Shown here: one piece after another, positions 798 to 63,097 of the stretch
Layout of the letters: the number at the start of each line of letters is the position of its first letter
How positions within the stretch are numbered: the stretch's first letter is position 1
Assembly (NCBI GenBank): GCA_963920765.1
Contig: OY987243.1
Span: forward strand, 16,306,001 to 16,370,000
DNA from: Ulota crispa
Taxonomy: Eukaryota > Streptophyta > Bryopsida > Orthotrichales > Orthotrichaceae
Reading direction: 5' to 3'
DNA: 64,000 nt
Translations under genes and position numbers: made by a program
The notes under the pieces: generated by a model
What the model saw: the letters and a program-made list of their open reading frames with translations, nothing else
What the model was told of the DNA's origin: nothing
Databases searched by the model: none

Positions 798-1193
798 AGG
801 TAGTCGCTCTAAAACCGTCACTTTAAGGGCTGTTTTGGATTTTCAAGTGCTTTTCAAGATGTGAAGATTTTTTGCTTAATTTTTTGTCAAAGAGAAATGG
901 ATGCTAAATGTAACCCAATTTTTTCCATATTTTTTGAAGCATTATTGAATTATTGATGAATTTTCAAAGTTTTTTGTAGTAGGCACCTATCTGTGACCCT
1001 AGATCTCCCATAAAGTGTCCCCTTGCAACTTGTAAAGAAATCAAGTGAACAGAGGAGTATGATTGGCTCTCGCAATAAAGTACACCTTTTCTTTTAAGAC
1101 TAAGAAGGGTCCATTCAAGAACCATCTCAATCCATTCTTAGATGGGCTATGGATTGTTTTAAATGTGAGGGTTGCAATTAGAGCCGACTACCT
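798..1193. mobile_element. AGGTAG-family MITE, copy 1
   Basis: A 396-bp element with inverted termini (AGGTAGTCGCTCTAAAACCG / AGAGCCGACTACCT), flanked by TA. Its interior matches the copy at 22753-23161. The right TA overlaps the TTAA used by the next element, so the TTAA element appears to have inserted at its edge. Seven elements with this terminus occur in the window. Confidence 0.65.
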
Positions 1194-1196
1194 TAA

Positions 1197-2119
1197 CCCC
1201 TAAAGGACCATGGCCTTTATTTTGTCAAAAGACACTCAAAACTGCCACTTCTATATGAAAGAGTAAAAAAATTTGAAGATTGGTCTTTTTGCATATCTAA
1301 CTGTAGGATCTTGTACTAGACTTGTACAAGAATGTGTTATTCAAAATTTAAAAACTTTGACCGCACAGATTGCAAGATATTTGCATTTAAAGTATAAAAA
1401 ACAAGGTTTTTTGCACCTTGCAAGACTAGATTATTTGACTTTGAATTTTTTTAACTTAAAATTTTTGGACCATGGAGTTTTGAGGTTTATTTTTTTATGG
1501 TGGGGAATTGAGTTGAGAATCTTTGCAACAAAAACCAAAACAAAAAATACATAATTCTCATTCTTAAAAAAAACATCAAATAGAAGAAGGTTTGAGACTG
1601 AACAAAATCTTACATTGTTAAAAACCTTGCAATGGAATTTAATCACAATAATCCCAATGGTGAGATTGTTCTAGCAAACAATCTTCACCCTTTCCAATAG
1701 TTCCTTTTGCAAAAATATTAAATTTGCATTCAAAAATGAAGTTTATAAGTTATTTTTTCAAAGCAAACCCACACCTAGCCACAAACTAAAACTTCTCATA
1801 ACTTTCATCTCATCTATTAGAATTCAATGATTCAAAGCTTCCCACGTCTATATAAGTCTAAAGAACCTATTTCAGATTTTTATTAAAAAGAAACAAATTT
1901 TTAAAAAAAGTCTTTGGCTACCCAATTTTGCCTGTTTTTAGAAATTCATGCATAACTTCTTCAATAAATGTCAGAATGAAGAAAAAATTACATTCCCATG
2001 TAGATCTTTGCATTCCTTACCTTCAGTAAAAGTTTCATAAAATCACGCAATTTAGTTTAACCATAAGTACATGCCCAAAATCCAATTGTCCCCCGAGGGG
2101 ACAGATGGTCCTGTCGGGG
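1197..2119 (+). mobile_element. TTAA-flanked element E1
   Basis: A 923-bp element bounded by TTAA (1193-1196 and 2120-2123). The left terminus is CCCCTAAAGGACCATGG and the right ends in TGGTCCTGTCGGGG, its imperfect reverse complement. Just inside the right end is the palindrome TTGTCCCCCGAGGGGACA. The interior blocks (AAACTGCCACTTCTAT near the left, ACTAAAACTTCTCATAAC near the right) recur in most other copies. Short open frames inside are not conserved between copies, so it is non-autonomous. Confidence 0.75.
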
Positions 2120-2123
2120 TTAA

Positions 2124-2732
2124 ACGCTGCGTGGGACTCATTTTCAAGAGTACAACTAATGAGTGGCAAGAACTGGAAACTACTAGGGCTCCTTCGGATT
2201 TTATGGCTGTATGGCAAATAAATTACATGGGGGAAAATAATGGCAGGAATGTGGGATTCGGGAGAAGGTAGGCCATACTCGTGAGATACGGTACCAGATA
2301 GCCATTGATATACGAGACACCGCTCTGTCGCTGGCACATGCCAGCCAAAAAATACGCAGCCGGGGTGCTTGAGATGGCGCCGGCGCACCTGGAAAACGTG
2401 TGCCCCTCACTCGCCCGCAATCGGCGACTTTGCTGTTTTGCTGCCGGGCCTCAATCGACGCAAACATATAGTGGATCTTGCAGTGTTGCAGCAAGTTCGA
2501 GACGCTAGTGGATGTCGGATCAAACCCATTTCCCACGAAGCAGTTCGCGACTGTGAATCGAAGCGAATCGAGGCCGGGACTGCGTGCATCGGGTTGGTGG
2601 GTTTTTTTAAAATCGAGCGACGCACTGCATTAGGGAGGGGTTTTGCTTGCTTGCTTGCTTATTAGCCGGATCCTAGATTGAGGGGGCATTGGGGGGCGAG
2701 AACATTGTGTGAGAGAGTTCGGGATATCGATC
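2124..2732 (+). promoter_or_regulatory. Presumed promoter and 5' leader of the CYP74 gene
   Basis: About 600 bp between element E1 and the CYP74 start codon. Base composition rises in GC from about 2300 onward, as in the genes of this window. A (GCTT)n run lies at about 2645-2660. No clear TATA box was identified and the transcription start is not known. The element copy immediately upstream could have changed regulation, but nothing in the sequence shows this. Confidence 0.4.
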
Positions 2733-4205
2733 ATGGCGGTGCCGCCGGGTGCAGCAGCAGCAGCGTCGACGACGGCGATGACAGCATCCAGTTTGCCTCT
2801 GCGGGAGATTCCAGGTGACTATGGGCTGCCCTACTATGGGGCCGTGAAGGATCGACTGGACTACTTCTGGTTCCAAGGCGAGGAGAAGTTTTACCAGAGC
2901 CGCATTGAGAAGTACAAGAGCACGGTGTTCCGAGTGAACATGCCACCAGGCCCAATCATCGCCAAGGACTCGCGAGTGATCTGCGTGCTGGACCAGAAGA
3001 GCTTCCCAGTGCTCTTCGACGTGGACAAGTGCGAGAAGAAGGATGTCTTCACGGGCACGTATATGCCAGCTCTCAGCTTCACCAGCGGCTACCGCGTGTT
3101 GCCATATCTCGACCCCAGCGAGGACCGGCACACGAAGCTCAAGCAATGGTGCTTCGACGTCATCGCGAAGAATGGGCGCAACTTTTTACCGGAGTTCCAC
3201 AAGGCGATCACGGAGTCGATGGTGCTGTGGGAGAACGACGTCGCGAGCGGGAAGAAGGGGGACGTGACGGGGGAAGTGAAGCAGTTTGCATTCAACTTCT
3301 TGTTCCGGGCGATCTGTCACCACGACCCGGCCGCGCCCGGGCCGGGGAGCCTGGGGCGCGACGGCGGCGGCCCCGGCGCGAGCCTGTGGACGTTGCCGCA
3401 GCTGGCGCCCATCGCAGGGCAAACCGGCCTGCCTCACCCGGTGGAGGAGATCGCGTTACGCACCATCCCGATCCCGTCTTTTCTCGTGAAGGGGAAGTAC
3501 GACGCCATTCACAACTTCGTGAAAACGTACGCCACTGAAGCGCTGGACATGGCGGAGGCGAGCGGCATCGAACGCAACGATGCCATAGCCAACCTCGTCT
3601 TCTTCCTCTCCTTCAACGGTTACGGCGGGTTCAACATCTTCTTCCCAGAGCTCATCGCCTTCATCAGCGCCGCCGGAAAGGACCTCATGCACGATCTTCA
3701 CGAGGAGGTGACAGCCGCTGTCGCCGCCACCGACGGCCAGGTCACCCTCAAAGCCCTCGAGAACATGCCGCTGCTGAAATCCGTCGTCTACGAAGGCTTC
3801 CGGTTCAAGCCCCCCGTGCCGTACCAGTACGCCCGCGCCAAAACCGACTTCGTCATCGAGAACCACGAGAACTCGTTCCAAGTGAAGAAACACGAGATGC
3901 TGTATGGGTTTCAACCGCTCGTAATGCACGACCCCAAGGTCTTCGCCAACCCCGAGCAGTTCCAGCCGCGCCGCTTTCTGGGCTCCGAAGGGGAGCAGCT
4001 CATCCAGTACGTCTTCTGGTCCAACGGCCCGGAGACGTCGACGACAACGGTGCACAACAAGCAGTGCGCTGGCAAGGACCTTGTCGTGACTATGTCGCGC
4101 GCGTTCGTCGCCGAGATGTTCTTGCGGTACAAGGACTACACGCTCGAGATCGACGGCGCCGGAAACGCGGCCAAGTTCCTCTTCACCGCCCTCTCCAAAG
4201 CTTGA
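2733..4205 (+). CDS. CYP74-family cytochrome P450 (allene oxide synthase-like)
   Basis: An intronless 490-residue protein, the usual size for CYP74 enzymes without a long transit peptide. CYP74s use no O2 or reductase; they rearrange fatty-acid hydroperoxides to allene oxides (toward jasmonate/OPDA), aldehydes or divinyl ethers. Visible motifs: the family opening PLREIPGDYGLPYYG (from residue 22), the I-helix FNGYGGFN (294-301) with no normal P450 acid/Thr pair, ExxR at E354-R357, and the CYP74 heme loop NGPETSTTTVHNKQCAGKD with the cysteine ligand at residue 445. The start at 2733 (ATGGCG) is preferred: the frame is open back to 2709, but that codon is GTG. The heme loop and I-helix favour allene oxide synthase over lyase or divinyl ether synthase. 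The HPL/DES alternative is not excluded. The Ala/Ser/Thr-rich first 20 residues may be a weak plastid signal or leave the enzyme cytosolic. An unusual Gly/Pro-rich stretch (PAAPGPGSLGRDGGGPGA) follows ICHHD. Confidence 0.93.
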   Translation: MAVPPGAAAAASTTAMTASSLPLREIPGDYGLPYYGAVKDRLDYFWFQGEEKFYQSRIEKYKSTVFRVNMPPGPIIAKDSRVICVLDQKSFPVLFDVDKCEKKDVFTGTYMPALSFTSGYRVLPYLDPSEDRHTKLKQWCFDVIAKNGRNFLPEFHKAITESMVLWENDVASGKKGDVTGEVKQFAFNFLFRAICHHDPAAPGPGSLGRDGGGPGASLWTLPQLAPIAGQTGLPHPVEEIALRTIPIPSFLVKGKYDAIHNFVKTYATEALDMAEASGIERNDAIANLVFFLSFNGYGGFNIFFPELIAFISAAGKDLMHDLHEEVTAAVAATDGQVTLKALENMPLLKSVVYEGFRFKPPVPYQYARAKTDFVIENHENSFQVKKHEMLYGFQPLVMHDPKVFANPEQFQPRRFLGSEGEQLIQYVFWSNGPETSTTTVHNKQCAGKDLVVTMSRAFVAEMFLRYKDYTLEIDGAGNAAKFLFTALSKA

Positions 4206-7101: not shown

Positions 7102-7578
7102 GAGTTTTATCATACCTTATTCTGTTGTTATCCTTTTTTGTTTTGTTGGCTTTGATTGTGGAAGTATGAAACTATTAATCAATTACAAGTACGACCTAAT
7201 TTTTGAGGAGCGAATCAAGAGTGCTCCAATGCTTTTGCCTTTCCTCAGAGAATTGAATAGTGGTAACAAAAAATGTATTTCTGATTATAAAAATAGATGT
7301 AGATATTCAACTTGCTTCAAACCCTCCGGTACAGGTAATACTGCAATTCCATCCTAAACCAATATTCACTACACCCGCTTCTACATTTTAAAAACAAACA
7401 CAAAACTAACCAACTACTCATGCACTTAGAATGCAAAAGCAGAGGCTCTGCATCCTAACGCATGGAGGAGGTGCCAAAAGGGCAGCATTTACCATCCTCA
7501 GATGTCTAGCCGGTCTCCATGGCGCTCAATGCCGCTGCCAAATGTGGTTCTTGCTCGCTACTGCTGCTGCCGATTTGG
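7102..7578. other. Spacer between the two Harbinger relics
   Basis: The 3' flank of the transposase frame and of the convergent Myb-like frame. Nothing else was recognised. Confidence 0.4.
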
Positions 7579-13735: not shown

Positions 13736-13818
13736 ATTGTGTTGGTCTCCCTTGTTGGGAAAACCTACAATTGCAATACAAAGGGCAAAAAGACCTATTC
13801 TCATGTTACGTTGTTTAA

Positions 13819-14858
13819 CCCCTAAAGCCCTAGGGTTTTTATTTTGTCAAAAGACACTCAAAACTGCCATTTCTATGGCAAAGAGTAAAAAAGTTTGGAA
13901 ATTGATATTTTTGCATATATAACCATAGGATATTGTACTAGACTAGTATATGAATGTGGAAAAAAAAATTCAAAAACTTTGACCTCACAAATTGCAAGAT
14001 ATATGAGTTGAAAGTGTAAAAAATAAACTTTTTTGCACCTTGCATGACTAGATTATTTGATTTTGAATTTTTTTACTTAAATTTTTTGCACTACAATGTT
14101 TTAAGGTTTATTTTTTTATGGTGGGAAATTGAGTTGAGAATCTTTGGAAGAAATTCAAAACAAAAAACACTTAGTTTTTGTTCTTAAGAAAAACATTAGG
14201 TAGAAGGAGGTATGAGATTAAACAAAAACTTAAATTGTTAATAACCTTGCAATGGAATTGAAACGCATTAATCCCAATGGTGAGATTGTTCTAGCACTAG
14301 AAGAAACATGTGTTTTTCTTGACGGATTTTTTTGGATATCCACTTGTTTTTATGTTACAACTGAAGTTAAACTAACATCCTAATGTTATGTTTGATGTCA
14401 TTGTTAACATAAAGACAAGTGGGCATCCAAAAATATCCGTCAAGAAAAACACAAGAGTGTTGAAAGCAAATTTCACCCCCTTTCCAACAAGTTTTTTTTG
14501 AAAAAATGTTAAACTTGCATTCAAAAATGAAGTTTATAGGTTATTTTTTTCAAGAAGATGCTTGAATTGCCCAAAAAACAAGATTGTTTATAACCTTCTC
14601 ATAACTATTTCAAATGGAATTAATCAAAACTTTAGATGTAGACAAAACTATAACTTATGAGAAAAAGAAATTGAATTTTTTTTGAAATTTTTGTAAAGAA
14701 ACAATTTATGCCTAATCTCCATAAATTTTTGCTTATATGACATAACTTTTGCTTCCAAGCATAAATTGGAATAAAATGTATATTCCCCAAAAATTGAGGC
14801 CGTAAATACCTACCCAAAATCCCATTTGTCCCGCAAGGGGACAACATGTTTTTAGGGA
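13819..14858 (+). mobile_element. TTAA-flanked element E2, interrupted by a CACTA-like MITE
   Basis: Bounded by TTAA at 13815-13818 and 14859-14862. It starts CCCCTAAAGCCCTAGGG and ends TTTAGGGA, with the subterminal palindrome TTGTCCCGCAAGGGGACAA. It aligns to E1 through the interior, except for a 165-bp insertion at 14295-14459. Same orientation as E1. Confidence 0.75.
14295..14459. mobile_element. CACTA-like MITE nested in E2
   Basis: A 165-bp near-palindrome that begins CACTAGAAGAAACA and ends CAAGAGTG. Its long complementary arms include TTCTTGACGGAT / ATCCGTCAAGAA and TATGTTA / TAACATA. Aligning E1 with E2 shows that this segment is absent from E1, so it is an insertion. The CACTA...AGTG ends suggest the CACTA (EnSpm) superfamily; matching 3-bp flanks are no longer visible. 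Confidence 0.6.
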
Positions 14859-14862
14859 TTAA

Positions 14863-20280: not shown

Positions 20281-20666
20281 TTACTTTATCCACATATACC
20301 TTTTTGATCCTAGTCATGCCCAAGTCTAATTTATGCCCAACCCTAATTGATTGAACGCTATCATATGATAGGCCCTAACTGACTAACCGCTGTTCTTTTA
20401 TTAATATAGATAAAGAAAAAAAGTTTCTCAATCCCGCACTACATGTAAGTACTAGGCGTAGGGGTAAGGTAGACTTACCTTATTCCGACCCTTTAAGAAT
20501 TCTGATCCTATGTACCCAACATGTTCATTTCATTTTTGAAATGAATATGTCGCCTATAGAGAGGTTGGAATTAACCCTTAAAGGATCATAGGGCATAATA
20601 TATATGCTGTCGTATAATTGGTATTTGCTACCAATAAGAAAATTTAATTTGGGATCTCAAGTATTC

Positions 20667-20920
20667 AACACAATATTCATTAATTTGGGAAACGGCAATT
20701 CCCAATTTGTATGTTTCCTTAATCTGAAACTCTCATCTTAATCTTGTTTGGCACACCTGTGAAAAAACAACTGATACTTTTCAGATACTTTACAGATGGC
20801 AGATGTCTAAATCTGAATTAGTCATGAAGAAGTGGAGATAAAATGGGCGTGACATGAAATGAAAATGTGGCCAAAAGTCCCAAAATGTGCTAGAATTCCC
20901 AAATTAATGAATATCATGTT
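20667..20920 (+). mobile_element. MITE AACACCATATT, copy 2
   Basis: A 254-bp element, with left end AACACAATATTCATTAATTT and right end AAATTAATGAATATCATGTT. The flanks ATTC (20663-20666) and ACTC (20921-20924) differ by one base. It abuts the mariner-like element that starts at 20922, so one inserted beside the other. Confidence 0.6.
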
Positions 20921-20921
20921 A

Positions 20922-21746
20922 CTCCCTCTGTCCCAATATAAAGCTCCAAATTAGGCATAGTTCTTGTGCCACTAAAAAGCTCCCTTTTGCTAATTTCAAC
21001 TACTGAAAAAGTTTTTGTCATATTCAATGATCTCATGGGGGCAAGTTAACCCCTAAGCACCCAGGCCATATTCACTCAAATCCATATCCTTGTGTACTTA
21101 GTCCAATAAAAGTATTACCTAAGTAGAGTCAAATAGCTTGAATTTTTTTGAGTGGTAGTAGACACATGCTTGGAGGTACATGAAAAAATACAAGTCCTTT
21201 GACTTTACCATTAAGAAGAGGATAAGAGTCAAACATGGACATTTTTCAAAACTAAGAGACCACATAGTGGTTGCTGGGGCACTCAAGGGTTAAGCAATTA
21301 AAGAGCATTACTCTCCTAACAAGCCTAGCCTTGCCCATATGAGGTACCATTGTTGATGCTAATCTTTAAATCATTAGTAATGAGGAGCTAGCAACATGTA
21401 CAAATATGGTACTTTTTGCATGGAATTTGGGTGCCCAAATGGCGACATCAAAGCTAGAGATTTTGCATACATTTGGTAGATGGTATGTTGATTCTAGAAC
21501 ACATGTGTTAATAGAAAAAAGACTAAAGCAATGAGGAGCCGGTAGCTTCACAAACTATGCACAATTATGGTACTTTTTGCATGAAATTTGGGTATCTAAA
21601 CGACAACATAAAAACTTGAGATTTTGCATATATTTGGTAGGTGGTATATTGATTCTAGAATGCATTTGCCACTAGCATAATGACTGAAAATACAATTAAT
21701 CCCTCATGGAGAAGTTTTTTGGAGTTTTATAATGGGACTAAGGGAG
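20922..21746 (+). mobile_element. Stowaway/mariner-like element CTCCCTCTGTCCC, copy 1
   Basis: TA duplicated at both ends (20920-20921 and 21747-21748). It has CTCCCTCTGTCCCA and TGGGACTAAGGGAG termini, the classic plant Stowaway (Tc1/mariner) end. It is interrupted at 21046-21293 by a TTAA element. The rest aligns in order with the copies at 41781-42202 and 55919-56251 (reverse orientation for the interior). Confidence 0.75.
21050..21289. mobile_element. Short TTAA-flanked element E3, nested in a mariner-like element
   Basis: A 240-bp element with TTAA at 21046-21049 and 21290-21293. It starts CCCCTAAGCACCCAGG and ends CTGGGGCACTCAAGGG. The two other copies of the host element in this window have a single uninterrupted TTAA at this place (42075-42078 and 56121-56124). 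This confirms insertion into TTAA with duplication of exactly four bases. Confidence 0.8.
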
Positions 21747-21895
21747 TACCTCACTAGAACCGCTTTGATCTATTTTCCAACTTCTTTGTTGATCTCAAAT
21801 CTAGTAGAGAAGTGGATCCATTCCAAATACAAGAAGAATATCCTGTATGGTACTGGTTGCAGTGGCACGCTTAGTCCTTTGGAGTTAAGATAGGG

Positions 21896-23161: not shown

Positions 23162-23163
23162 TA

Positions 23164-26084
23164 GAGCATCTCCACCAAGGGCTTCCCCTTCCCCAAATGG
23201 ATGAAGATGCAGGGAAGATGGGGATACGGGTGGGGAAGCCCCACCAGTTCTTCCCTAGCTGCCATGTTTATTACCCATCAGCCACATGGACAGTGTAAAC
23301 ATTGATCTTGCTCGCTCTTCCACCGGGACCTTTGTAGATTTGATTGATGTGTGGCTAGTTTTGATTGATGTACCCTTGAATATTTCTGAGTCATCAACCA
23401 TTAATTGAGTCAATGGTTAACAAAGTTAGATTGGTAATTAGGTTACTAATTTACCTACAAATGCTACCATTATTAATCAACAAAATGAAATTAAGCTTGT
23501 TAGAAGAATTTGAATACAAATTGACAATGAAATAATTTAATAATTGTGAGAATTTTTGAAAAGGGTTTAAAAAATAAATTAGGGGATTTAGAAAAAATAA
23601 ATTTTTATTTTTTGTGAAAAAGAAGAAACATGTAATTTAAAAATTGAAGAGCACTACTTGTTTTTGGGTTGGTTCAAAAGTTATAATATCAATTATTAAC
23701 AAAAAAAATAAATTCATGTGTAATAGTTGATCCAAAAGTTGAGCAATAATTTTTTTCATTAATTTAGAAGGTGTACTATGGCCTCCAAGCTAGTTTTGTT
23801 CATTTTGTTTTACCATTCAAAAAATTTGGTATGTTATAAAATAAAATTAGCATTTTAGAATCTTGTACCATTATTTTTTAATTCTTACACAATCCCAATC
23901 AAGCATACCAAATTTTGAGTTTCAAAAAATCAAATTCCTATTTTTGGTGAATTGTTTTACATAACATTCATGGTTTTACATGATAAAGGATTAAAAAATT
24001 TTGGTAATGAATTTTAGAGATTTGATTTCATAGATGCATAGGAAACATCCACACACACATCTTTTCTTCTAATAAGCTTCTCCAAAAAAAATTATAATTC
24101 CTTCTATGTAGATTTTATTAATGAAGTGATTACAACCAAATCTTGTAAATTAGATATTTCTTCATGGTAATCACATTTTTTTGTTTGACTTATACAATAT
24201 AGTTAGGTCTGAAACTTTGAGCATAATGATATGATTCTTTTGCCAAAAACTAGTTAAAATTACAAAAATCTCTATTTTACAAAATTTGATCATGATCACT
24301 CCAACATTAAAATCTACATAGAAGGAATTATAATTTTTTTTGGAGATGCTTGTTAGAAGAAAAAATGTGTGTGTGTGGATGTTTCCTATGCATCCATGAA
24401 ATCAAATCTCTAAAATTCATTACCAAAATTTTTTAATCCTTTATCATGTAAAACCATGAATGTTATGTAAAACAATTCACCAAAAATAGGAATTTGATTT
24501 TTTGAAACTCAAAATTTGGTATGCTTGATTGGGATTGAGTAAGAATTAAAAAATAATGGTACAAGATTCTAAAATGCTAATTTTATTTTATAAAATACCA
24601 ATTTTTTTGAAGGGTAAAACAAAATGAACAAAACTAGCTTGGAGGCCATAGTACACCTTCTACAATTTACTTTACAAGCATTTTACTATTTGTATAAGAA
24701 CTAAAATAACTACACAACCTATATTATTGTAATTAGTTTCGTTTAGTTTTCTTAGTAATTGAGGCATAGAAAACATGTAACTTATGCTATGTACTAAAAA
24801 TAATTTGCCTTTACAATTAGAGAGTTTTATTTCAAAAAGTGTATTTAGAAGCCATAAAAGTCATCAAATGTTTTTGTAAAAAAGTCCATTCTTACAAAAG
24901 CACGTTCATGATTACAACAACACCAAATTCAAGAGTAGTTCATACTTATACAACAACAAATGATATTTATAGAGTGTCAAATGTCAAGAAATTAGTGTGG
25001 AACAAATTAATTTTACTATTTAAAAATTTAGTGACCAAGTTCTTAATGATGTTCAATAATTATGCTAATTAATTAGTAGCTTGAACGTAGCATGAATTAA
25101 ATACTCTAGCTAATTAATTTTGGATACACACCAAGTGATTCAATTGTGATGTGATGGATAATGAGTTAATCCCTAAATGCCCAAGGCACCCAATTTGGGT
25201 GTTCACAAAACTTTGAAGATGAAGAAAATCTTATCAAACCACTATTTTCACTAAAAAAATTCAATAATTTTTTTGTTTTGAAATCTATTTTTAACATCAA
25301 AAATTTGATTTTGAAAATGAATGTTGGTGATTTTTCTACTCAAAATTTTGTACAAGGGTGTTGATTGCAATCTTGAATTCATTTGTGTTGAAAATCTTTA
25401 AGAGTCTTAAATGCACTAGAGCTTGGAGAAAAAATCAACATTAGAAATTCATCAAAATAAATATAGGAGTAGATTTGAAAGCTGTAAATTGATTAAAGTT
25501 AAACATGTAATCACCTTAAACCTCATGTTTTTTTGGTCACCAACTTTTTAGATTTGACAAGTGAAATGTGTATTGGAAGACTTCAAGTCACTTTTACAAG
25601 TTTAAGACCCTCATATTCAAACATTATAATCTTTCAAAATATAAGTGATATTGTCAAGTTTTTGTTTTTCCATGTAATATCTAACATGTTTAACTAAAAA
25701 CTATACGGTTACAATTTTAAAAAATTGCTGAAATTATAAAAAGGTTAGTTGATTGTGTAGTTCATGGAAAATCCAAGAGGTCAGAAAATCCTTGTGCAGT
25801 GAGGAGTCAAGGGTGCCCAAGCTAAGGGGAAATGGGTGTAGTGGGTCGATGAAGGTGGGCCAGGAGATAAAAAGAGTAAAAGCCAAGCACTTTTTCTGGA
25901 AATAAGTGGGTACGGTTTACTAAATATGAGTTCCCTATATGGGCCTCTGGATACGGAATTGGGCCCCCGGAACACCCGGATCTCTAAATATTTAGAATTA
26001 CAGGCTGCTGGTGGAGGGGTTTCTTCCCTACCCGGATGGAATTCATCCGGATACGGATAGGGATCCTCCCTGGTGGAGATGCTC
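23164..26084. mobile_element. 2.9-kb non-autonomous PIF/Harbinger element
   Basis: A 2,921-bp element with perfect ends GAGCATCTCCACCA and TGGTGGAGATGCTC. Identical TTA lies on both sides (23161-23163 and 26085-26087), as in plant Tourist/Harbinger elements. The subterminal regions are GC-rich and the interior is very AT-rich. No transposase frame is present. It carries the nested foldback element at 23767-24660. A possible single TTAA-family end lies at about 25166-25200 (TTAATCCCTAAATGCCC), with no partner found. Confidence 0.75.
23767..24660. mobile_element. 894-bp foldback element with TA duplication
   Basis: Two arms of about 350 bp are almost perfectly complementary, starting GAAGGTGTACTATGGCCTCC and ending GGAGGCCATAGTACACCTTC. 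They enclose a unique centre of about 190 bp (roughly 24120-24310). TA flanks both ends (23765-23766 and 24661-24662). Transcription would give a long hairpin. Both arms carry the same TGTGTGTGTGGATGTTTCC block in opposite orientation. No coding capacity. Confidence 0.82.
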
Positions 26085-27912: not shown

Positions 27913-27991
27913 TGGCTCAACATTCAGGGAGTTTTTGAGTTTTTCACAAAGACATGCAATTATCCTTCATTTCTTGTATTTAATCCATTAA

Positions 27992-28932
27992 CCCCTAAAC
28001 CACAAAGTTTGTTCAACAATTGGTTGAAAGTTTGGGTAGGGTCCTATGAAGTCAATTTTTGGCGGATGTTTTTTGAAATTTGGAGACAAGGTGCACACAA
28101 TGAGTACCTTTGTGTGGAAAAAAAGAAAACTCCAATCAGATGCTTGAGTAAAAAGTTATGTTGCCCAAAAGAATTTGGGCTCCTTGGACTTGGGCATTTT
28201 TGGAGAATCTTATGCTAAAACTCTCATTAACTTTTGAAACTTGGCAAGTACGTAACTAATGAAACATGGTACACGATTGTTTAAAAAAAAAATGAGCTCC
28301 CACATCACATTCTAAGAGGAGTCAAACTTTGTTAACTATGTTTGGGCAATTTCAAAAAAAGACATTTCTTCTAACATTAGGCCCTATTATCTTTCAATTT
28401 ATAAATTTAAAGTTCTTGAATTTGTTTTTGTTTATTCCTAATGTTTGTTTCTAACTTTTCACTATTTGGATTTCAGATAAAAGACTTCCTTATTGCTCAA
28501 GAAATCATGAAAAAATGACTAGTGTATTGCCAATTCACTAAACTTCCTTGCATTAGAGTAGTTTAGAATAAGCTAGATTCTACATGTGCTTCTGAAATTT
28601 TTCACAGGTGAACCTCACATCATGTGCTTTTGAATGGAAATTTTTGTTTATTTTTGTAGAGCAAAAATTTTACTTCAAGAGGGCTCAAAGTTTGTTGACC
28701 TTGTTTTGCAAGAGCAAAAAATGGTGTTTTTCTCACTTCAAACATTATAACCTTACAATCTACTCGGTCAAGTGGTCTGAATTCTTTTGCACACACTATT
28801 TTACTTGTATATTACACTTGTATGCGGGTCGGAATTTTTTTTTAAAGTGTTTATTTTGAATTTTAAATGAATCATTAAAAAAATACAATTTTGGTCTTAT
28901 TTTTCTCTGCAACACCTGTAGGGCTTTAGGGG
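27992..28932. mobile_element. TTAA-flanked element E4
   Basis: A 941-bp element with TTAA at 27988-27991 and 28933-28936. The termini are CCCCTAAACCACAAAG and TAGGGCTTTAGGGG. The interior differs from E1, so it is a separate subfamily that shares only the ends and target. Non-coding. Confidence 0.68.
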
Positions 28933-28936
28933 TTAA

Positions 28937-29667: not shown

Positions 29668-29671
29668 TTAA

Positions 29672-29893
29672 CCCTGAACGGCCCAAAAGCCCTTTGCGGC
29701 TGTATGTACAGACGTATTTGAGCTGCTCTAAGGCATTTCCAAAAAAAATTATGCACCCACCATCATACAACTCTTCAATATGTATGGTTGGAACACTTAA
29801 TTTCCAGCTAATTTCCAGCTAATTCAAACTTTTGAATATTGGTTGCGAATGTATTTGGTACCGTAGCTCTAGAGCCCAAGGGCCCTTCAAGGG
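29672..29893. mobile_element. Short TTAA-flanked element E5
   Basis: A 222-bp element with TTAA at 29668-29671 and 29894-29897. It starts CCCTGAACGGCCC and ends GGGCCCTTCAAGGG. With E3 it forms a short subgroup of the TTAA family. Confidence 0.7.
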
Positions 29894-29897
29894 TTAA

Positions 29898-30535: not shown

Positions 30536-30539
30536 TTAA

Positions 30540-31448
30540 TCCCTAAAGAATCAAGCAAATCTTTCACCAAAAACTCTCCAAAATTGTCATTTTTAGAGCA
30601 TCAAAAAAAATTTGAAAACAAAAACCTTTATGCATATGTAACCGTAGGATCTTGTAGAAGAATAGTTTTAGAAGACGTGGAAAAAAATTCAGAGTTTTAC
30701 ATTGCGTGGATTAGAAGTTAGAATGGTTTGAGTATCCAAAAACGTCTTATGAAAAATTGGGCAACTACCCTTCAAAAGGTGAAATTCCTAAGGAAAAAGG
30801 CCATGTGGGTGGTGCTTCTCTAAATTCCTTATACCACCTAAGTAAAGTACATGTCAAAAAAGTTTCAAATCATTTGGAATTGTATACATATGAAAAAAAT
30901 TAGTAAGTAAAAAGAAGTAGAAAATGATTCAAAACACAAAATCGTTAAGAATATAATAATGGAAATGAAAAATGCCAATCCCAATGGTCATAATGTTGTA
31001 ATAAACAATCTACATCCTTTGGTTTTGTTTTTTTCCAAAATGTTGAAAATTGAGTAAAATAAAGGACTTCAAAGTTTATTTTAGAGTAGAGAATCCATAA
31101 GTGTTTGCAAACAAAAAAACTCATAACTTTCATCTTGTTGATCAAAACGGAATGATTGAAAGCTTCCTACATTCACATAAATCTCCTAAACCAATTTAAA
31201 GTTTTTGTTTTTGAAAAAAATGATTTTTGAAATCTGCCCAGGCTGCCCGACAAACGTAAAAAAACAACATATTAGGCCATAACTTTTTACTCATAATTCT
31301 AAATGTCATGAAATTTGTTGCATATGAAAGATAAACCTTGTTCTTACATTCTATCAAAATTTCAGTCTAAAATATGAAAAGCTCCAATCACAAGTACATG
31401 CCCAAAATCACTATGTTGCTAAAAGAAAGGGGTCTGATCCTTTAGGGA
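30540..31448 (+). mobile_element. TTAA-flanked element E6
   Basis: A 909-bp element with TTAA at 30536-30539 and 31449-31452. Ends are TCCCTAAAGAATC and GATCCTTTAGGGA; both terminal bases have changed together from C/G to T/A. The interior blocks (TATGTAACCGTAGGATCTTG, AACTTTCATCTTGTTGAT) match E1. Confidence 0.75.
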
Positions 31449-31452
31449 TTAA

Positions 31453-36136: not shown

Positions 36137-36137
36137 A

Positions 36138-44429: not shown

Positions 44430-44504
44430 GTGCGTGCAGGTGATGCTGGTTCTCTCGGGAGAGTCGCGTCGCGGACGACGACGACGACGACGGTGAAAGC
44501 AAAG

Positions 44505-45480: not shown

Positions 45481-45484
45481 TTAA

Positions 45485-46204
45485 CCCCTAAAGGACCACT
45501 TGTCCCTACGGGGGACAAATGGGATTTCAGGCATGTGCTTATGTAAAAACTACTTTTTGTAATTTTTTGAAACTTTTATGGAAGATGGGGAATTCAAAGA
45601 TCTGTATGGGCATCTAATTTTTTCCTCATTCCGACATTTATTGAAGAAGTTTAAAATGATTATATGAGAATTTTTGTTTGGCGGGCAACCCAAAAACTTC
45701 TTTAAAAATTGCATTTTTTTAAAAGAAAAATTTGAGGTTAGTTCTTTAGACTTAAGTATATGTGGGAAGCTTTGAACCATTCAATCCTAATTGATGAGAT
45801 GAAAGTTATGAGAAGTTTTAGTTTGCAAGTACGTGTGGAAAATCTCAAAACCATGCCTACACGCAAACTAAAACTTCTCATAACATTTATCTCATCAATC
45901 AAAATTGAATGATTCAAAGCTTCCCACATATACTTAAGTCTAAAGAACTAACCTCAAATTTTTCTTTTAGAAAAATGCAGATTTTAAAGAAGTTTTTGGG
46001 TTGCCTGCCGAACAAAAAGTCTCATATATTCATTTTTAACTTCTTCAATAAATGTCGGAATGAGGTAAAAATTAGATGCCCATACAAATATTTGAATTCT
46101 CCATCTTCCATAAAAGTTTCAAAAAATTACACAAAGTAGTTTACCCATAAATACATGCCCAAAATCTCATTTGTCCTCCGTAGGGACAAGTGGTCCTTTA
46201 GGGG
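45485..46204. mobile_element. TTAA-flanked element E7, snap-back (two right ends)
   Basis: A 720-bp element with TTAA at 45481-45484 and 46205-46208. Both ends are the same palindrome-bearing terminus (CCCCTAAAGGACCACTTGTCC and its complement), so the whole element is an inverted repeat with arms of about 345 bp and a centre of about 30 bp near 45845. The two arms encode 76-codon open frames on opposite strands that are about 85% alike. These are open by chance; the same frame is closed in E1. Confidence 0.85.
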
Positions 46205-46214
46205 TTAAGAGCTT

Positions 46215-47392: not shown

Positions 47393-47408
47393 TAGGTTGT
47401 TTCAACAA

Positions 47409-48650
47409 GGGAAATTTTGGTGGATACATTTGAACTTTGCATTATTTGTATAGATACCCCTATTTTTTCAGAAATTATACAAATATCCATGGACAACAAT
47501 TTTCAATTGTTTATTTTATTGTGCATGTCACTTCCTTTTTTCTTTGTGAGTATGTTGATTTTTTTCCTTCCATTGCACTCCCTTCTTCAACATTGATCAT
47601 TAACCCCTCATTGCCTAAAGTCCGACTAGGCCTAAAAGCATCCTTGCTTTTCAAATTTTGTAAGTCTAAATTTTAGTGGAGTATGAAAATCTCAACCATG
47701 CAAGCTTGTAGTATGCATGTTCTAGATGATGTGGATCAAATTTGGGGTCATCTGACCACATAGATTGGAAGATTATAATCTTTTAGTATTAGAAAAAGAT
47801 GCTGAAAATTTCCTAAAAACATATTTGGAGGTGAAATATGATTTCTAAACCAACTCAACTGAAAGAAAATGAAAATGTAAAGTGATTCAAACCAATATAC
47901 AAACACATTGGCAAAAGAAAATATCTATCAATATACTCATTTTGTTTGCAAAATTAATTTGAAATGTAAATAAACAATGAAAAAAGTAGCAAAAAATCAC
48001 ATCTTTGGCTAAACCTCCCTCTACTAAAATGTTTTCACTCATAACTTATTGGACTAATATAATATTTTAACCACAATAACTAGAGTAGTATGTTCAACTT
48101 TTCCAATAACAAATATGACGAAGTTATAAGCCACCAAACTTCGCTGTAATGCAAAAATGTGCATTCAAGGAAACTTGGATTGATGTGAAAATTCTACCAC
48201 AATTACTAGAATTTAAGAACAACAAAAAATAGCAAATTTTATTGAAAAAAAAACATTTGATGAAAAAGATACAAGCCCCCAAAGTTGCAACCCCCGTATG
48301 TAGTGTGGTAAACTCAAATTGACCTTGTGAACTTTGAATGGCTTTCACAAACTTAATGTGTCTTAGATTGATTTAAAATTTCTATCATAGGAACCAGACT
48401 AGTATGTGCAACTTCTCCAATAACTTTTATTGAATTTTAGCAATAAATACAAAAATTATAGCACTTTAGGTAGGATTGACAGTCACCTAGAGGATGCATT
48501 CTATCCCCTTAGGCAATAGGGGTTAAGGAAGTGACAAGCACAACAAATAAATGCCTAAAATTATGGCCCAAGGTATTTGTGAAATTTTTAAAAAAGTTGG
48601 ATTAAATATAAAAATATTGCAAACTTTAGGAAAACCCATCAAATTTTCCC
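47409..48650. mobile_element. Foldback MITE GGGAAAATTT, copy 3, split by a TTAA element
   Basis: The left arm (GGGAAATTTTGGTGGATAC through TGTGCATGTCACTTCC) and right arm (GGAAGTGACAAGCACAAC through CCATCAAATTTTCCC) match the copies at 10818-11133 and 32317-32634. TTAA element E8 sits in its centre. Confidence 0.68.
47604..48522. mobile_element. TTAA-flanked element E8, nested in a foldback MITE
   Basis: A 919-bp element with TTAA at 47600-47603 and 48523-48526. Ends are CCCCTCATTGCCTAAAG and CTTAGGCAATAGGGG. These termini keep CCCC and the TTAA target but differ from E1 after base four, so it is another subfamily. Confidence 0.7.
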
Positions 48651-48655
48651 TTTTA

Positions 48656-53220: not shown

Positions 53221-53224
53221 TTAA

Positions 53225-54723
53225 CCCCTAAACCACCAAGGTCATTTTAATGCCAAAAACCACTCAAAATTGTCCCTACTGCGTTCATTAAAATTTTCAA
53301 CAAAATGTTGTTCTTGAAAATCCAACCATAGGATCTTGTAATGCTTTTGTAGGAAAAGAATCAATGAAAACTTGGTGACATTTCACCATACGGATTGAAA
53401 GTTATGAGCATCTGAAGGGAAAGTTTTCTTTTTCTCATTGAGCCTGAAAATTTCAAATGGCTTTGACCACCATTTGCTGATTTTTTTTGCACTATAGACC
53501 TTGAATTTGTAATTTTATCTTATAAGTACACAAGTTAGACCTTTGTACACCAATTTTCAAGGCAATCAAAGACAGAGAACACATCCTAAAAAATATTGCA
53601 ATGCCACTATATGACAAGTTTTGCAAATACACTATGATATTTTTGAGTGAAGTTTCCCACCGCATGTTTTTAGATATGAAAAATCCAAATGGTGTGTTTG
53701 AAGATAAAAATGTACAAGTAGTTTACCCTAGTATCACTCCGCTCCTATTATTATTTTTCTATCTTCAAAAATTCATATCTTTTACAGTTTAGTTTCAAAT
53801 CCAAATTTACAAGTATTGCAAGAAAGGCCTCAGAGTCCTTTACTAATCCTCAAATTTTTGTTCCATTTGACCAAAATTTGCAAAAGATATTGCGTATTAG
53901 CTATAAAGACCTTAGTTAAATATACAATTTATTGCCCCTGCGCCTTAGCTAAGCAATTTTAGTTGCAAAATATAAAAAATAAATGAAAATTGTCAGCTAA
54001 GTTAGCACTTATGGATGACCATAGAGGTCAAGGAAAGGAAGAAGAAGTTCAAAGATGAAAATGACAAAGTGTTATCATATATGACAATGAAAATCTCTAA
54101 AGAAGTGGTAAGGAAGTGATAATAGGGCAATTTCAAATTTGAGTTGAACCTAGACCTTACCTTATTGTAACCTTGATAACTATTTCATACTCCACTCATT
54201 TAGGAACTTGGAACTTGATACAAAACCTTGACTTGATTATCTTTTAGATGAGACCATAACCATATCATTTGATATATTATAACTATTTTTTTATTGATTT
54301 TTTGTCTAAGGCCCAATGATAATAGGGTAAACTACATGTACTTCAAATGTCAAAAAAAAGTTAAAAAACTCAAAATCTCTAAAATTTAGAAGCTCCCAAA
54401 GTCCAATTTGACCTCTTAATTGGAAATAAAAGGGGAAGTAATGGGGACCACTAGAGCAACACGTGGCAACCCCTCCTTACTCCCTCTCCTCCAAAGTCAA
54501 TATTTTCTCCCTTGACCAAGCTGCCCTTCAAACTGCTTTTGGCCAAAAACAGCCCATAACTTTTGAATCGTGTGACATAATCACATGATTTTTTGCATCC
54601 CACAAACCTTATACATTCATGCACACTCATAATAGGTTTTAAAAAATCATGTAAAAAATTGAGGTTACACAAGCCTATCCAAAATCCCAAAAGTCCCTCG
54701 AGGGGACTTTGATCCTTTAGGGG
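53225..54723 (+). mobile_element. TTAA-flanked element E9 (longest copy)
   Basis: A 1,499-bp element with TTAA at 53221-53224 and 54724-54727. Ends are CCCCTAAACCACCAAGG and GATCCTTTAGGGG. The subterminal palindrome is AAAGTCCCTCGAGGGGACTTT-like (about 54690-54710). Both of its arms differ from the other copies in matching positions. It is longer than its relatives and may contain a further insertion that I could not delimit. Confidence 0.65.
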
Positions 54724-54727
54724 TTAA

Positions 54728-58100: not shown

Positions 58101-58104
58101 TTCA

Positions 58105-59003
58105 CCCCTAAAGGATCATTGTCCCTTCCGGGACAGGTCGGACTTTGGTCATGTATCTATGGCTAAACTGCTTTGTGTGATTTTCTAAAACTTTTATTGA
58201 AGGTGGGGAATTCAAAGATCTATGTGGGCATTTAATTTTTTCTTCATTTTGACATTTGATGAAGAAGTTATGCATAAATTTATGAAAATTTGGGGAGGAC
58301 TGCCCATCCGGGCAACCAAAAAACTTCTTTAAAAATTACTTTTTTTTAAACTGAAAAAATGAAATTGGTTTTTTAGATTTTTTTTATTCATGAGAAGCTT
58401 TATTCAATTTCAATCAGTGACATGAAAGTTATGAGGAGTTTTTGTTTGCACGCAGTTATGGAATATTTACTCTAAAATAAACTTTGAAGTCCTTTATTTT
58501 ACTCAATTTTCAATATTTTGGAAATATAATTAAACCAAAGGAAGTAGACCGTTTATCACAACATTATGACGGTTGGGATTAGCATTTTTCATTTCCATAA
58601 TTAAATTCTTAACAATTTAGGGTTTTGACTCATTCTCTACTTCTTTTTACTTACTAATTTTTCCCAAATTCTCCCAACACATACCTAACTTGATCTCCTA
58701 CATGGAAAAAATAAATTGCAACTTTGGGTAGAGCAAATTTTTTTGTTACAAGAGTGGTCAAAGGCTTCTGAAGTTTTTGGGTAGCATGGAAAAAAACTTA
58801 GTTTTTCACTTTAGATGTAAATATCTCACTCCTCTTCATTTGGAATGAGTTGATTTTTTTCTTACAAGTACCTCTTCTAGTCCAAGGCAAGCTCCTACGG
58901 ATGGATTTCTCAAAAACAAAACACAAAATTATTTTTTTCTAAACCTCCTAGAAATGGCAATTTTTAGTAATTTTGGTAAAAAAAAGGCTTTTACCTTTAG
59001 GGG
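58105..59003 (-). mobile_element. TTAA-flanked element E10
   Basis: An 899-bp element, inverted relative to E1: the palindrome-bearing end (CCCCTAAAGGATCATTGTCC) is on the left and the other end (ACCTTTAGGGG) on the right. TTAA is intact on the right (59004-59007); the left reads TTCA (58101-58104), one substitution away. Confidence 0.72.
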
Positions 59004-59060
59004 TTAATAAGCTGAAGCTCTTTCTGACTATGGTGGAAGCACCCACGTCCAATAACTTAA

Positions 59061-60001
59061 TTCCTAAAGGACCATTGTCCCTTTGGGGGACAATTGGGAT
59101 TTTGTGCATGTACATGTGGCTAATCTACTTTGCCTGATTTTTTGAAACTTTTAGTGAAGATGGGGAATTATAAGATCTACGTGGGAATCTAATTTTTCCT
59201 TCATTCTGACAATTATTGAAGAAGTTATGCATGAATAATTGAAAAACATGGGAGAATCGGGCAGCAAAAAAAATACAATTTTTAAAAATAAAATTTTGAA
59301 ATTGGTTCTTTAGACTTTTATGTATTTGGGAAGCTTTGAATCATTCAATTTTGATAAATAAGATGAAAGTTATGAGAAGTTTTAGTTTGCGGGTAGGTAT
59401 GGGACTCCCAAACCTCTATTCCTTTTCCCCCTTGTAAAACTTGTTGCTTTACTTTTTTGAGTTTTTTGTGTATTCTTTTTTTGATTTCTTTTTGCAAGTT
59501 GTAGTAGACTAAGATTCCTTGGCTTTCACCATTTGGATCAAAGTAATTTGGGTTTTTGAATTTTGCATAAATCCTCCAATTTTGCCTAGTGTATATACAA
59601 ATTTCATGACCTTATAGCATTGCAAGATTTTACAAAGTATGATCCACACCTCCGTTTCATTTGAAAATTCTCCGACACATATCGAACTTGGTCTTCTACA
59701 TGGGAAAATAAACCTCAACTTTGTGTAAAGCAATTTTTTTTGATATAGGAGCTGTCAAAGGCTTTTGAATTTTTGGGCAGTAGTGAAAAAAACTTTTTTT
59801 TTTCACTTTAGATGTGAATATCTCACTCCCCTACAACTAGAATGAGCTGATTTTTTTCCCCACAAGCACCTCCTATAGTCTAGGGCAAGATCTCACGGTT
59901 GGATTTCCAAAAGTACTTTATTTCCTACATTTCTATTCAGTCCTCCAAAAGTGGCAGTTTTGAATAATTTTCACAGAAAAAAGGGCTTGGTCCTTTAGGG
60001 G
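59061..60001 (-). mobile_element. TTAA-flanked element E11
   Basis: A 941-bp element with TTAA at 59057-59060 and 60002-60005. The left end TTCCTAAAGGACCATTGTCC carries the palindrome ATTGTCCCTTTGGGGGACAAT; the right end is GGTCCTTTAGGGG. Same orientation as E10, 57 bp away. Nearly the same sequence recurs inverted at 62150-63093. Confidence 0.78.
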
Positions 60002-60005
60002 TTAA

Positions 60006-62145
60006 GCGGTTTTACAAAAAACTACAAAGAGTTTGAGGCAACAAATATTTTTCCCATGTTGGAAGATGTAGAATGCCTAATTGTACTTAAATTCTAAATT
60101 TTAACAAATAGGTGCTCTACCCCTATTTATGAGCAGTTTATAAGCAAATTGGTAATTAAAAGGATACAATTAGGTTAAAGAGATTGGAAAGAAGCCAAAT
60201 TGGCCAAGAGTCAATGGATTTTGTGAATAGACTAGAAAGGAGATTCCAATAGGGTTGAGAAAAACTACAAATAGGGAGAGGAAGCAAGTAGGAGGGACCC
60301 ACAATTTTGGAGAGCGTGAGAGTCTCAGCCCTAGTTGGTTGTGTAAGTTTTATTTGTTTTTGCTTGTTCTTATCAATATAGTATATATTACTACTTGTTG
60401 TGTTTGAGTATGTGTTCATGTGTGTGATGCTATCTGAATGTGTGATTGAATGTGATTTAATTTGATTTCCAATTGAGAGTTTGGATCAATGTTGTAGTTT
60501 TGAGAGAAGACTGAATTGGTACTTGAGTGAGAGTTTATGAAATTCCTACTTAGAGATAATGTGTATGGAGAATTGATTAATGTCAGTAGCAATTGGGAGC
60601 TCGTATGATTGTAAAAATCTAATCCAATTTGCTTGATTGTGTATGTAATTTGTATGCATGTATGATTCTTTCCATTTGGGTCAAGAGATTGAATTGGAGA
60701 TTAGGGTTTGAAATGAAATATGAATCAACTTGTTATTTAGTGTCGTTGAAGTGTGTTTGTACCAACTGGGTGTATGAGAGATTGCACAAATGAGTGTTGA
60801 ATGCTTAAGTATTTTAAATCCGATTGGGTAAGATACCTGAGATATACAAGTTGAGAAAACAAAATCAGTGAGTGATGTGAGCCTACTTGGAAGTGAGAGA
60901 GAGATACTTCAATTAAATTGAGGATTAAAGAGGCTCATGAGATAATATAAAAGCCAATTTCGAGAGTGTGTGAGTAGGTTATTGAGAGAAAATAAACACA
61001 TCCTGAGTTGGAATAAGAGTGATCTGAGAGAAAAATATTCAGTCGATTAGGAATAAAAGAAGAGGGAATGAAAATAAGAATATCCCGAGTTGGATGGTGA
61101 GAGGCTAAGAGAATAAAAGTGTCTCAGGGAGGGATATAAACCGAATTGGGTAATGAATGAACAAACTAGCCAAATTGGAGTAAAAACTAGAAAGAAAAAG
61201 AGAGAATATCCCGAGTTGATGGTGAGCATAAAATAAAAGAATAAAAGCATCAAGTTGGAGAGTGATTTCCAGTGGCTGTAAGATAAAAGCGTTACAACTC
61301 GGAGTAAAAACATGGACCTGTGAAGCTGCCAAGCTCAATGAAAAGACTGCTGCCAATTGGAAGAGATACAGAATGGAGAAAGAAAGCTTGAAGATTGCTT
61401 GAGGTTAAAAAAGAAGAAAAGAAAGTTAGATTTGAATATTCTAACTCTATTTGGGCATATAATTAAGAGTGTAACATCCTAATAGCAATTAGGAGCATAG
61501 TCAATAATCCGATTAAAAAAGGAATTTCCTACTTGGGTTTTTAAGTAAAATTGAAAGAGTCTTGCAAACCTATAAAAAATAGTTTCCCCAAACAAACTCA
61601 TCCCTAAACTAGGTTTACAATTAAAGTAATCCAAATCTAACTCCACAGAAGATAAAAAATATTAGGATTGCAAAACTTTCATAATTTTATTTGCAAAATT
61701 GAAATTACTTTGAATGTTGGGAGTCAAAAAGTATTTTGGAACCATTGCCAAGTCTAGATTCATGTAGTTTAGATAATAGCCAAACTACTTTCAACTCATT
61801 ACTTCCTACCTCACTTTGGGACATGTGGCATGACCTAAGTGGCCCCAAGCTTGAAAAGGACACAAAAACGCAATCCAAAGCACCTATCCTTGCTTATGGT
61901 GGAAATAGCACATCCTATTGGTTGGATATGAAGCGTTGATGGAAATGGGTGCTTCCACCTTATAAGCAAGAAAATCTTAGGATAAAAATTATGAAAACAA
62001 ATTAAAGCTGCTGTTTGCCCAAAAAATGTTATTGACATTTAAAGTTGACAACTATTTGGCTATTGTGGCCAAATATTTGCTGGTTTATGGTATCTTGCAC
62101 TATATATTTGGGATTTTGGAATTTTGAGATTTTGCAATATTTGTT
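60006..62145. other. Spacer with degenerate purine-rich repeats
   Basis: No gene seen. From about 60470 to 61500 the plus strand is A/G-rich. It repeats variants of CCRARTTGG followed by GAGAG/TGAGAG words at irregular intervals, which suggests a decayed minisatellite. The segment at 60160-60400 resembles an LTR or promoter in composition, but no LTR pair was found. Confidence 0.35.
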
Positions 62146-62149
62146 TTAA

Positions 62150-63093
62150 CCCCTAAAAGACCAAGCACTTTTTTTGTGAAAATCATTCAAAACTGCCACT
62201 TTTGGGGAAATGAGTAAAAGGTAGCAAAAAAAAATTAAAAAAAAATCCAACCCTAAGATCTTGCCCTAGACTATGGGAGGTGCTTGTGGGAAAAAAATCA
62301 GCTCATTCTAGTTGTAGGGGAGTGAGATATTCACATCTAAAGTGAAAAAAAAAGTTTTTTCCCTACTGCCCAAAAATTTCAAAAGCTTTGACAGCTCCTA
62401 TATCAAAAAAATTGCTCTACGCAAAGTTGAGGTTTATTTTTCCCATGTAGAAGACCATGTAAGGTATGCATGGGAGAATTCTCAAATGAATTGGAGGTGT
62501 GGATCATACTTTGTAAAATCCTGCAATACTGTAAGGCCGTGAAATTTGCATATACGCTAGGCAAAATCAGAGAATTTGTGTAATACTCAAAAATCTGAAT
62601 TACTTTGATCCATATGGTGAAAACCAAGGTATCTTAGTCTACTACAACTTGGAAAAAAGAAGTCAAAAATAAAATAAAAAAGGAGCTCAAAAAAGGAAAG
62701 CAACAAATTTTACAAGAGGCAAAAAGAATGGAGGTTTGGGAGTCCCATACCTACTCGCAAACTAAAACTTCTCATAACTTTCACATCAATCAAAATGAAT
62801 GATTTAAAGATTCCAAAATTTGTATAAATCTAAAGAATCAATTTTAGATTGCTTTTTTAAGAAAGTGCAATTTTGATTATTTTTTCCTGGGTTGCCCGCC
62901 CTCATCCTTTTTCAGAAATTCATGCATAACTTCTTCAACAAACGTGGGAATGAAGAAAAATTTAGATGCCCATGTAGATCTTTTAATTTCCCATCTTCAA
63001 TAAAAGTTTCAAAAAATCACAAAAAATAGATTAGCTCTAGGTACATGCCCAAAATCCATTTGTCCCCCAAGGGGACAGTAGGTCCTTTAGGGG
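62150..63093 (+). mobile_element. TTAA-flanked element E12
   Basis: A 944-bp element with TTAA at 62146-62149 and 63094-63097. Ends are CCCCTAAAAGACCAAGC and AGGTCCTTTAGGGG, with the palindrome TGTCCCCCAAGGGGACA. It is the inverted near-copy of E11, so the two could pair across about 2.1 kb. Confidence 0.78.
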
Positions 63094-63097
63094 TTAA

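Follow-up and report, generated by a model that had tools for sequence, protein, structure and literature searches.

The 64-kb stretch of DNA analyzed here (C2:16306001-16370000 of a 274.8-Mb assembly; hereafter the window) contains twelve TTAA-flanked transposable elements, E1 to E12. In a land-plant genome, probably that of a moss, they almost certainly represent non-autonomous elements of the piggyBac superfamily that resemble miniature inverted-repeat transposable elements (MITEs) and would have been mobilized by the transposases of longer copies with the same termini. This assignment is made because a transposase with the PF13843 domain (DDE_Tnp_1_7, piggyBac family) lies between the termini that the short copies carry. 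Transposons of this kind are known but have hardly been described from such a host; here they are present in very high numbers and carry a palindrome at a position known from the insect element. A first-pass annotation of the window had proposed a piggyBac origin from the TTAA flanks and the CCC-starting termini, and locus L049 does contain a long copy that combines such ends with a piggyBac-type transposase, with sisters at L029/L030 and L050.

A profile search of the genome with PF13843, the only transposase family searched genome-wide, gave 120 matches at about 116 places spread over contigs C1 to C11, with a best E-value of 1.3e-73; 116 of 528 first-look candidates were scored, and 10-kb stretches were read around six of the best 20 places. 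For three transposase-bearing families, represented by L049, L050 and L029, the whole element could be delimited from one TTAA-flanked terminus to the other. The L049 element (505-8537) has TTAA outside, ends in CCCCTAAAAG and CCCCTAAAGG and is 8.0 kb long, having been enlarged through nested insertions. Its left terminus matches that of E7 (82%) and its right terminus matches those of E11 and E12 (82-83%), while positions 53320-53583 of E9 match its right interior (69%). The L050 element is 5.7 kb long with CCCCTAAATGCC ends. L029 and L030 are 90.5% alike and contain a 5.0-kb element with ends CCCCTCATCGCC or CCCCTCATTGCC and CCCTTCATTGCC, flanked by TTAA except on the left side of L030 (TTCA); E8 has this type of terminus. 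Two further transposase-bearing loci, L031 and L032, have the right end TTAACCCCTAAA(A/G)G and share approximately 550 and 450 bases, respectively, with E11, which matches the 3′ ends of L031, L032 and L049 in its right terminus and interior.

A Pfam scan of six open frames from L049, L050 and L029 identified PF13843 in all three families (E-values of 3.2e-44, 2.6e-59 and 6.1e-61, respectively); the 5′ frame of L049 gave no Pfam match. Matches in the PDB at E≤0.01 were limited to insect piggyBac (6x67/6x68) and piggyBat (9c0f), with respective values of 1.8e-17 and 1.2e-11 for L049, 1.6e-25 and 2.7e-21 for L029, and 3e-13 and 1.7e-16 for L050. Residues D268, D346 and D447 of 6x67, which we take to be the catalytic triad of the insect enzyme, each align with an aspartate in L049, as read off the alignment. 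Inspection by eye also revealed a cysteine-rich stretch after the catalytic domain in L029, L049 and L050, and a likely intron with AG borders ahead of the main coding exon in L031 and L032.

Kolobok and Sola3 also use TTAA as their target, and the elements could belong to one of these or to another TTAA-targeting superfamily, resembling piggyBac in looks only. We consider such an origin very improbable, as the copies with these ends in L049, L050 and L029 encode PF13843 and the piggyBac catalytic residues align in L049; it is already refuted for the three delimited families, no search aimed at Kolobok or Sola transposases having been made. The termini point the same way, since those of the CCCCTAAAGG, CCCCTAAATGCC and CCCCTCATTGCC types begin CCYT or CCC (a few window ends begin TCCC or TTCC), in keeping with the piggyBac rule of terminal inverted repeats (TIRs) of 12-19 bp beginning CCYT together with TTAA, as given in excerpts of a Teratorn review (PMC10175614). 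CCC starts and TTAA are likewise described in animals in the text available from PMC10813416. An autonomous copy encoding a transposase of another superfamily, which the first-pass annotation had named as evidence for a different origin, was not seen among the long copies read, all of which encode PF13843.

Within the window, all twelve elements of the first-pass annotation were located. Without the TTAAs they sum to approximately 10.2 kb, or 16% of the window (9,975 bases for eleven elements plus 222 bases from 29668-29897). TTAA lies directly outside 23 of the 24 element sides, the exception being the left side of E10 at 58101 (TTCA), just as had been reported. The description of the starts as CCCC or close variants holds for most termini; TCCC is found at the right end of E2 and at both ends of E6, TTCC at the left end of E11 and CCCT at both ends of E5. 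With at most two mismatches allowed, 20 copies of the 14-base word TTAACCCCTAAAGG were counted in the window, compared with 0.76 expected (100 shuffles, maximum 3). In a BLASTN comparison of the window elements (E≤1e-5, alignments of at least 60 bases), a common interior joined E1, E2, E6, E7, E10, E11 and E12. E9, which had been placed in this group, gave no match to any other window element at these thresholds, whereas E7 had been left out of it. E3 and E8 are nested within other repeats, as had been claimed of the family.

Paralogous empty sites carry a single TTAA. The L049 element lies inside a repeat that has an uninterrupted relative in L050; the joined flanks align through with one TTAA (GGATTTTAAGATATTTG versus GGATTTTAAGGTATTTG), so the interval 505-8537 is a single insertion accompanied by TTAA duplication. 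The empty relatives of E3 also have one TTAA each and are located at about 42,075 and 56,121 in the window and at about 1,527 in L049. Comparison of the E8 host repeat (47404-47603 / 48525-48652) with 32309-32642 was not used as an empty site because the host is palindromic and diverged and the junction is ambiguous.

The same empty sites could be explained if the short copies had been moved by a Tc1/mariner- or Harbinger-type enzyme with a TA or TTA target, the piggyBac copies being coincidental neighbors, because a TA duplication within a TTAA-only target would also leave a single-TTAA empty site. This explanation has very little probability given that the short and the transposase-bearing copies have their termini and up to approximately 550 subterminal bases in common, that L049 represents one insertion by its empty site, and that the entire TTAA is kept at 56 of 66 sampled ends. 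In the elements read we found neither the 3-bp TTA or TAA duplication of PIF/Harbinger nor a transposase of that superfamily, for which no genome-wide search was made. Thus, although the TTAA flanks and single-TTAA sites leave TA inseparable from TTAA, the transposase argues for piggyBac.

Ends of this kind are abundant throughout the genome. TTAACCCCTAAAGG occurs 15,411 times (reversed control 1) and the looser pattern TTAACCCCTNA 44,334 times (reversed control 773), while TTAACCCCTAAATGCC and TTAACCCCTCATTGCC occur 4,241 and 259 times, respectively (control 0 for both). CCCCTAAAGGACCA, for which TTAA was not required, occurs 8,876 times (control 0), and exact TTAA was found outside 56 of the 66 such ends on the plus strand of the first 3 Mb of C1; a genome-wide prevalence of other flanks, which had been put forward as a sign against piggyBac, was not seen in this sample. 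Because each element has two ends, the 44,334 TTAACCCCTNA occurrences suggest on the order of 20,000 element copies, a number that misses decayed ends. The window contains 7 exact TTAACCCCTAAAGG ends compared with 3.6 predicted from the genome average, and the genome-wide share of these elements is therefore probably lower than 16%.

Several observations weigh against the assignment to piggyBac. Exact TTAA was absent at 10 of the 66 sampled CCCCTAAAGGACCA ends, and where every target is TTAA, empty sites alone cannot tell whether TTAA or only TA was duplicated. The 10 kb read revealed no left end for L031 or L032, and the cysteine-rich tail of L049 on its own matched no PDB chain. In addition, at least two stops lie within 18 of the best 20 PF13843 matches and at least one within 19 of them. 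Judged from these sequences, the transposase copies examined are mostly broken, and we assign the elements by sequence without a claim to present activity. An interval of L031 (3319-3762), initially attributed to the element, proved in a genome search to be a separate nested repeat (40 scored places including itself) and is therefore uninformative on the left end. This repeat of approximately 440 bases has 84-87% identity at 39 other scored places and is nested in the piggyBac copy.

Among the best 20 loci, the three triad positions are occupied by aspartate in 18, 13 and 18 cases, respectively, and 10 of the 11 losses are asparagine. Pairwise identity between the 20 transposase domains has a median of 35% and ranges from 27 to 81%, so that many old transposase lineages coexist in the genome. 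As side observations, 417 transitions and 60 transversions separate L029 1863-6889 from L030 1897-6922 (ratio 7), the ratio is 1.2-1.4 in the short pairs (E11/E12, the arms of E7, and E4 versus its L049 copy), and the arms of L029 430-1155 give a ratio of 3.7 on 14 changes. Because of the transition excess, the D-to-N losses and the TAG and TGA stops, these data suggest that the coding copies decay through cytosine methylation; the short pairs may instead be older. Two other loci, L115 2451-3866 (C8) and L114 2150-3838 (C1), contain piggyBac-domain frames without internal stops (472 aa; the C1 frame in two pieces). Paired TTAACCC ends were not found within the 6 kb read around them, and both are candidates for old or domesticated transposase genes. 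No relatives of L050 were found by pattern in viral contigs (one query, L050). The absence of PF13843 from all 14 control genomes was not used for conclusions about plants, because that set seems to be without a plant; PF00223 was found only in Synechococcus.

Palindromes were first spotted by eye in the element ends and then tested statistically. With free spacing, perfect 5-base arms centered at positions 19-29 were present in 27 of 66 ends (3.9 in shuffles). In the insect geometry, with arms of 4-8 bases on either side of the center, the same 66 ends peaked at center 25, with 17 ends and a cluster weight of 9.1 of 30; other centers mostly had weights of 0-2, with a maximum of 5.25 at center 70. 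For 60 fresh ends, center 25 was predicted beforehand and was observed in 11 of 60 compared with 1.1 in shuffles (2000 shuffles, maximum 6), the corresponding cluster weight being 3.17 of 25 (shuffles 0.42, maximum 3.00). Pooling of all 126 ends gave 37 clusters, 11 of which had a palindrome at center 24/25; the column-permuted null had a mean of 1.0 and a maximum of 5 (500 permutations), and centers at or beyond 34 had a mean of 2.2 and a maximum of 7. The palindrome thus has a preferred position, and its arms vary (TGTCCC/GGGACA, CACCC/GGGTG, GGACG/CGTCC, TGGCT/AGCCA, GGACA/TGTCC and GGGAC/GTCCC).

In insect piggyBac, the C-terminal cysteine-rich domains (CRDs) dimerize on a palindrome at bp 17-33 of the left end, and an internal repeat is present in both ends at differing spacing, according to excerpts of Chen et al. 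2020 (PMC7351741). By analogy, the palindrome at center 24/25 would occupy the position of this insect CRD site, which is centered on bp 25. Most simply, the plant transposases would likewise dimerize on a palindrome at the same distance, whose sequence would have changed lineage by lineage. We give roughly even odds to the broader proposal that the end architecture is a fixed ruler common to plant and animal piggyBac, with a CRD-dimer palindrome at bp 24-25 and a free sequence.

Not all of the counts favor a conserved site. When one end per cluster was considered with free spacing, centers 19-29 accounted for 8 of 30 clusters compared with 3-6 of 30 for other intervals. In the 60 fresh ends, center 14, where the arms overlap the conserved terminus, also gave 11 and center 77 gave 9, and by cluster weight center 77 (3.67) exceeded center 25 (3.17). 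Moreover, at the threshold used, the 21 plausible end pairs had the palindrome on one end in 8 cases, on both in 3 and on neither in 10; one-ended examples are E1, E9, E12, L006, L007 and L050. These 21 pairs remained after automatic pairing had given 24 (3 both, 10 one, 11 neither) and three wrong pairings (21046-28936, 25166-28936 and L049 505-3442) were discarded.

A palindrome at bp 24-25 could instead be a by-product of fold-back structure or of end composition, without being a protein site. Some elements are wholly palindromic (E7, itself a near-complete palindrome, and L029 430-1155), the arms are GC-rich and their surroundings AT-rich, the fresh ends gave a modest weighted peak that one distant center exceeded, and 10 of 21 pairs had no palindrome at either end. 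We nevertheless regard a by-product as unlikely, since the arms vary among clusters yet the center is fixed at 24/25 (11 of 37, null maximum 5 in 500 permutations) and coincides with the insect CRD site at bp 17-33 in the excerpted text of PMC7351741. The fold-backs E7 and L029 430-1155 each consist of two inverted copies of one end, with arms of 89% and 96%, respectively; their transcripts would form long hairpins and are possible sources of small RNAs.

For these elements as piggyBac members, the mechanism of transposition is likely as in insects. A DDD transposase would bind the short terminal repeat, a dimer of its C-terminal CRD would hold the palindrome centered on bp 24-25 inside an end, and the element would be excised and then inserted at TTAA with duplication of the TTAA. 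A palindromic internal repeat corresponding to bp 17-33 is present in 11 of the 37 end clusters, with weaker support by cluster weight in the fresh sample. We infer the protein-DNA contacts, the cut-and-paste chemistry and seamless excision; the window copies would likewise have been mobilized by this particular transposase subfamily.

The annotation was correct in calling this a plant genome. The window contains a P450 gene, B-box and CCT frames (CONSTANS-like), and F-box and leucine-rich repeat (LRR) frames. Plastid contig C157 encodes psaA, for which the best PDB matches were 6l35 and 8htu (1642 bits each) and 9lut (1610), followed by chains at approximately 1572; 6l35 and 8htu are presumably Physcomitrium (moss) structures. 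The host is thus probably a moss. The assembly includes ten contigs of 16-41 Mb. Since piggyBac is mostly known from animals, fungi and protists (PMC12732532, as excerpted), the elements could in principle have entered the assembly as animal or fungal contamination. This is extremely improbable, because they sit among plant-type genes (P450, B-box, CCT, F-box/LRR) on a 37-Mb contig, lie nested within further repeats of this genome, and have transposase places on contigs C1 to C11. Separately, 46 of 48 matches to PF00223 (photosystem family; psaA/psaB pieces) lie in nuclear contigs C1-C10, outside the plastid contig. These pieces are plastid DNA inserted in the nucleus, and the weakest matches may be due to chance.

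Table 1. Elements of the family located in the 64-kb window; the coordinates of E1 to E12 include the flanking TTAA.
Element	Coordinates	Strand	Features
E1	1193..2123	+	Non-autonomous piggyBac element; TTAA on both sides; right end palindromic, TGTCCC..GGGACA
E2	13815..14862	+	Non-autonomous element; left half 84% to E1
E3	21046..21293	+	248 bases; nested inside another repeat; 3 paralogous empty sites, single TTAA each
E4	27988..28936	+	Family member also nested within L049 at 2517-3442 (76% by BLASTN)
E5	29668..29897	+	230 bases; ends CCCTGAACGG / CCCTTGAAGG
E6	30536..31452	+	TCCC ends; interior common to E1, E7, E10 and E11
E7	45481..46208	.	Fold-back; palindromic end in two inverted copies, arms 89%
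E8	47600..48526	+	Left end CCCCTCATTGCC, right end CCCCTATTGCC; sits inside another inverted-repeat element
E9	53221..54727	+	1.5 kb; right end AAAGTCCC..GGGACTTT
E10	58101..59007	-	TTCA in place of TTAA on left flank
E11	59057..60005	-	Approximately 84% to E12
E12	62146..63097	+	E11 subfamily, opposite orientation
Additional degraded member (CCCTTAAAGG)	20571..21888	+	Hosts other insertions, E3 among them
Additional degraded CCCCTAAATGCC-family member	25166..25811	+	Palindrome CACCCAATTTGGGTG centered on bp 25; right end decayed

The window also contains further repeat families, inverted or tandem, at 23761-24667, 10807-11144, 32309-32642 and 40020-40711, and the repeat into which E8 inserted belongs to the family of 10807-11144 and 32309-32642. 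A minisatellite with 9-base periodicity occupies 44409-44864, one frame of which reads as GKEGKE-type repeats.

The elements described here share with Trichoplusia ni piggyBac (6x67/6x68) a catalytic domain that aligns at three aspartates (in L049), the TTAA target and a CCC-starting repeat. They differ in length, at 5.0-8.0 kb compared with approximately 2.5 kb for the insect element, in their CCCCTAAAGG-type termini, in the likely intron before the main exon (L031, L032) and in having a land-plant host. A palindrome centered on bp 25 is also common to both (insect left end, bp 17-33; PMC7351741, in part), whereas the palindrome sequences differ from that of the insect and vary between clusters. 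PiggyBat (9c0f) belongs to the same transposase family and has an animal host. Teratorn-type piggyBac has a TIR starting CCYT and a TTAA target (PMC10175614, excerpts) but differs in its animal host and in carrying a herpesvirus genome; nothing of that size was seen here.

Among plant transposons, the Tourist (PIF/Harbinger) and Stowaway (Tc1/mariner) MITEs are similarly short, numerous and non-coding with inverted repeats (PMC10004981, excerpts), but they duplicate TAA/TTA or TA, whereas the present elements combine TTAA with a piggyBac transposase. The excerpted text of the same article counts PiggyBac as one of the seven superfamilies into which angiosperm MITEs are divided according to TIR and target site duplication, and mentions no PiggyBac transposase. 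In the C-fern draft genome, another land plant, the repeat table gives 1,230 PiggyBac copies (PMC6890710, in part); these amount to 122 kb and 0.00% of the assembly in a table line, whereas in the genome studied here the ends number in the tens of thousands and transposase-bearing copies could be delimited. Plant occurrences are called occasional in excerpts of PMC12732532, with red algae named. Among the matches listed in the open-access literature, a scope outside which subscription papers, preprints and Repbase lie, we found no description of piggyBac in mosses, of such numbers in a land plant or of the common end geometry; the moss article retrieved contains just the word "piggybacking".

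This find genuinely widens the host range of piggyBac and offers many transposase-end pairs. Because the palindrome recurs at one position, the way in which piggyBac recognizes its ends can be tested directly across kingdoms. If the fixed ruler holds, each transposase lineage of the moss would have its own palindrome, providing a series for reading the CRD recognition code, and a land plant would rank with the most diverse piggyBac sources known. Transposases native to plants could likewise be relevant to the engineering of plant genomes, which borrows the insect enzyme (PMC10794571, as excerpted).

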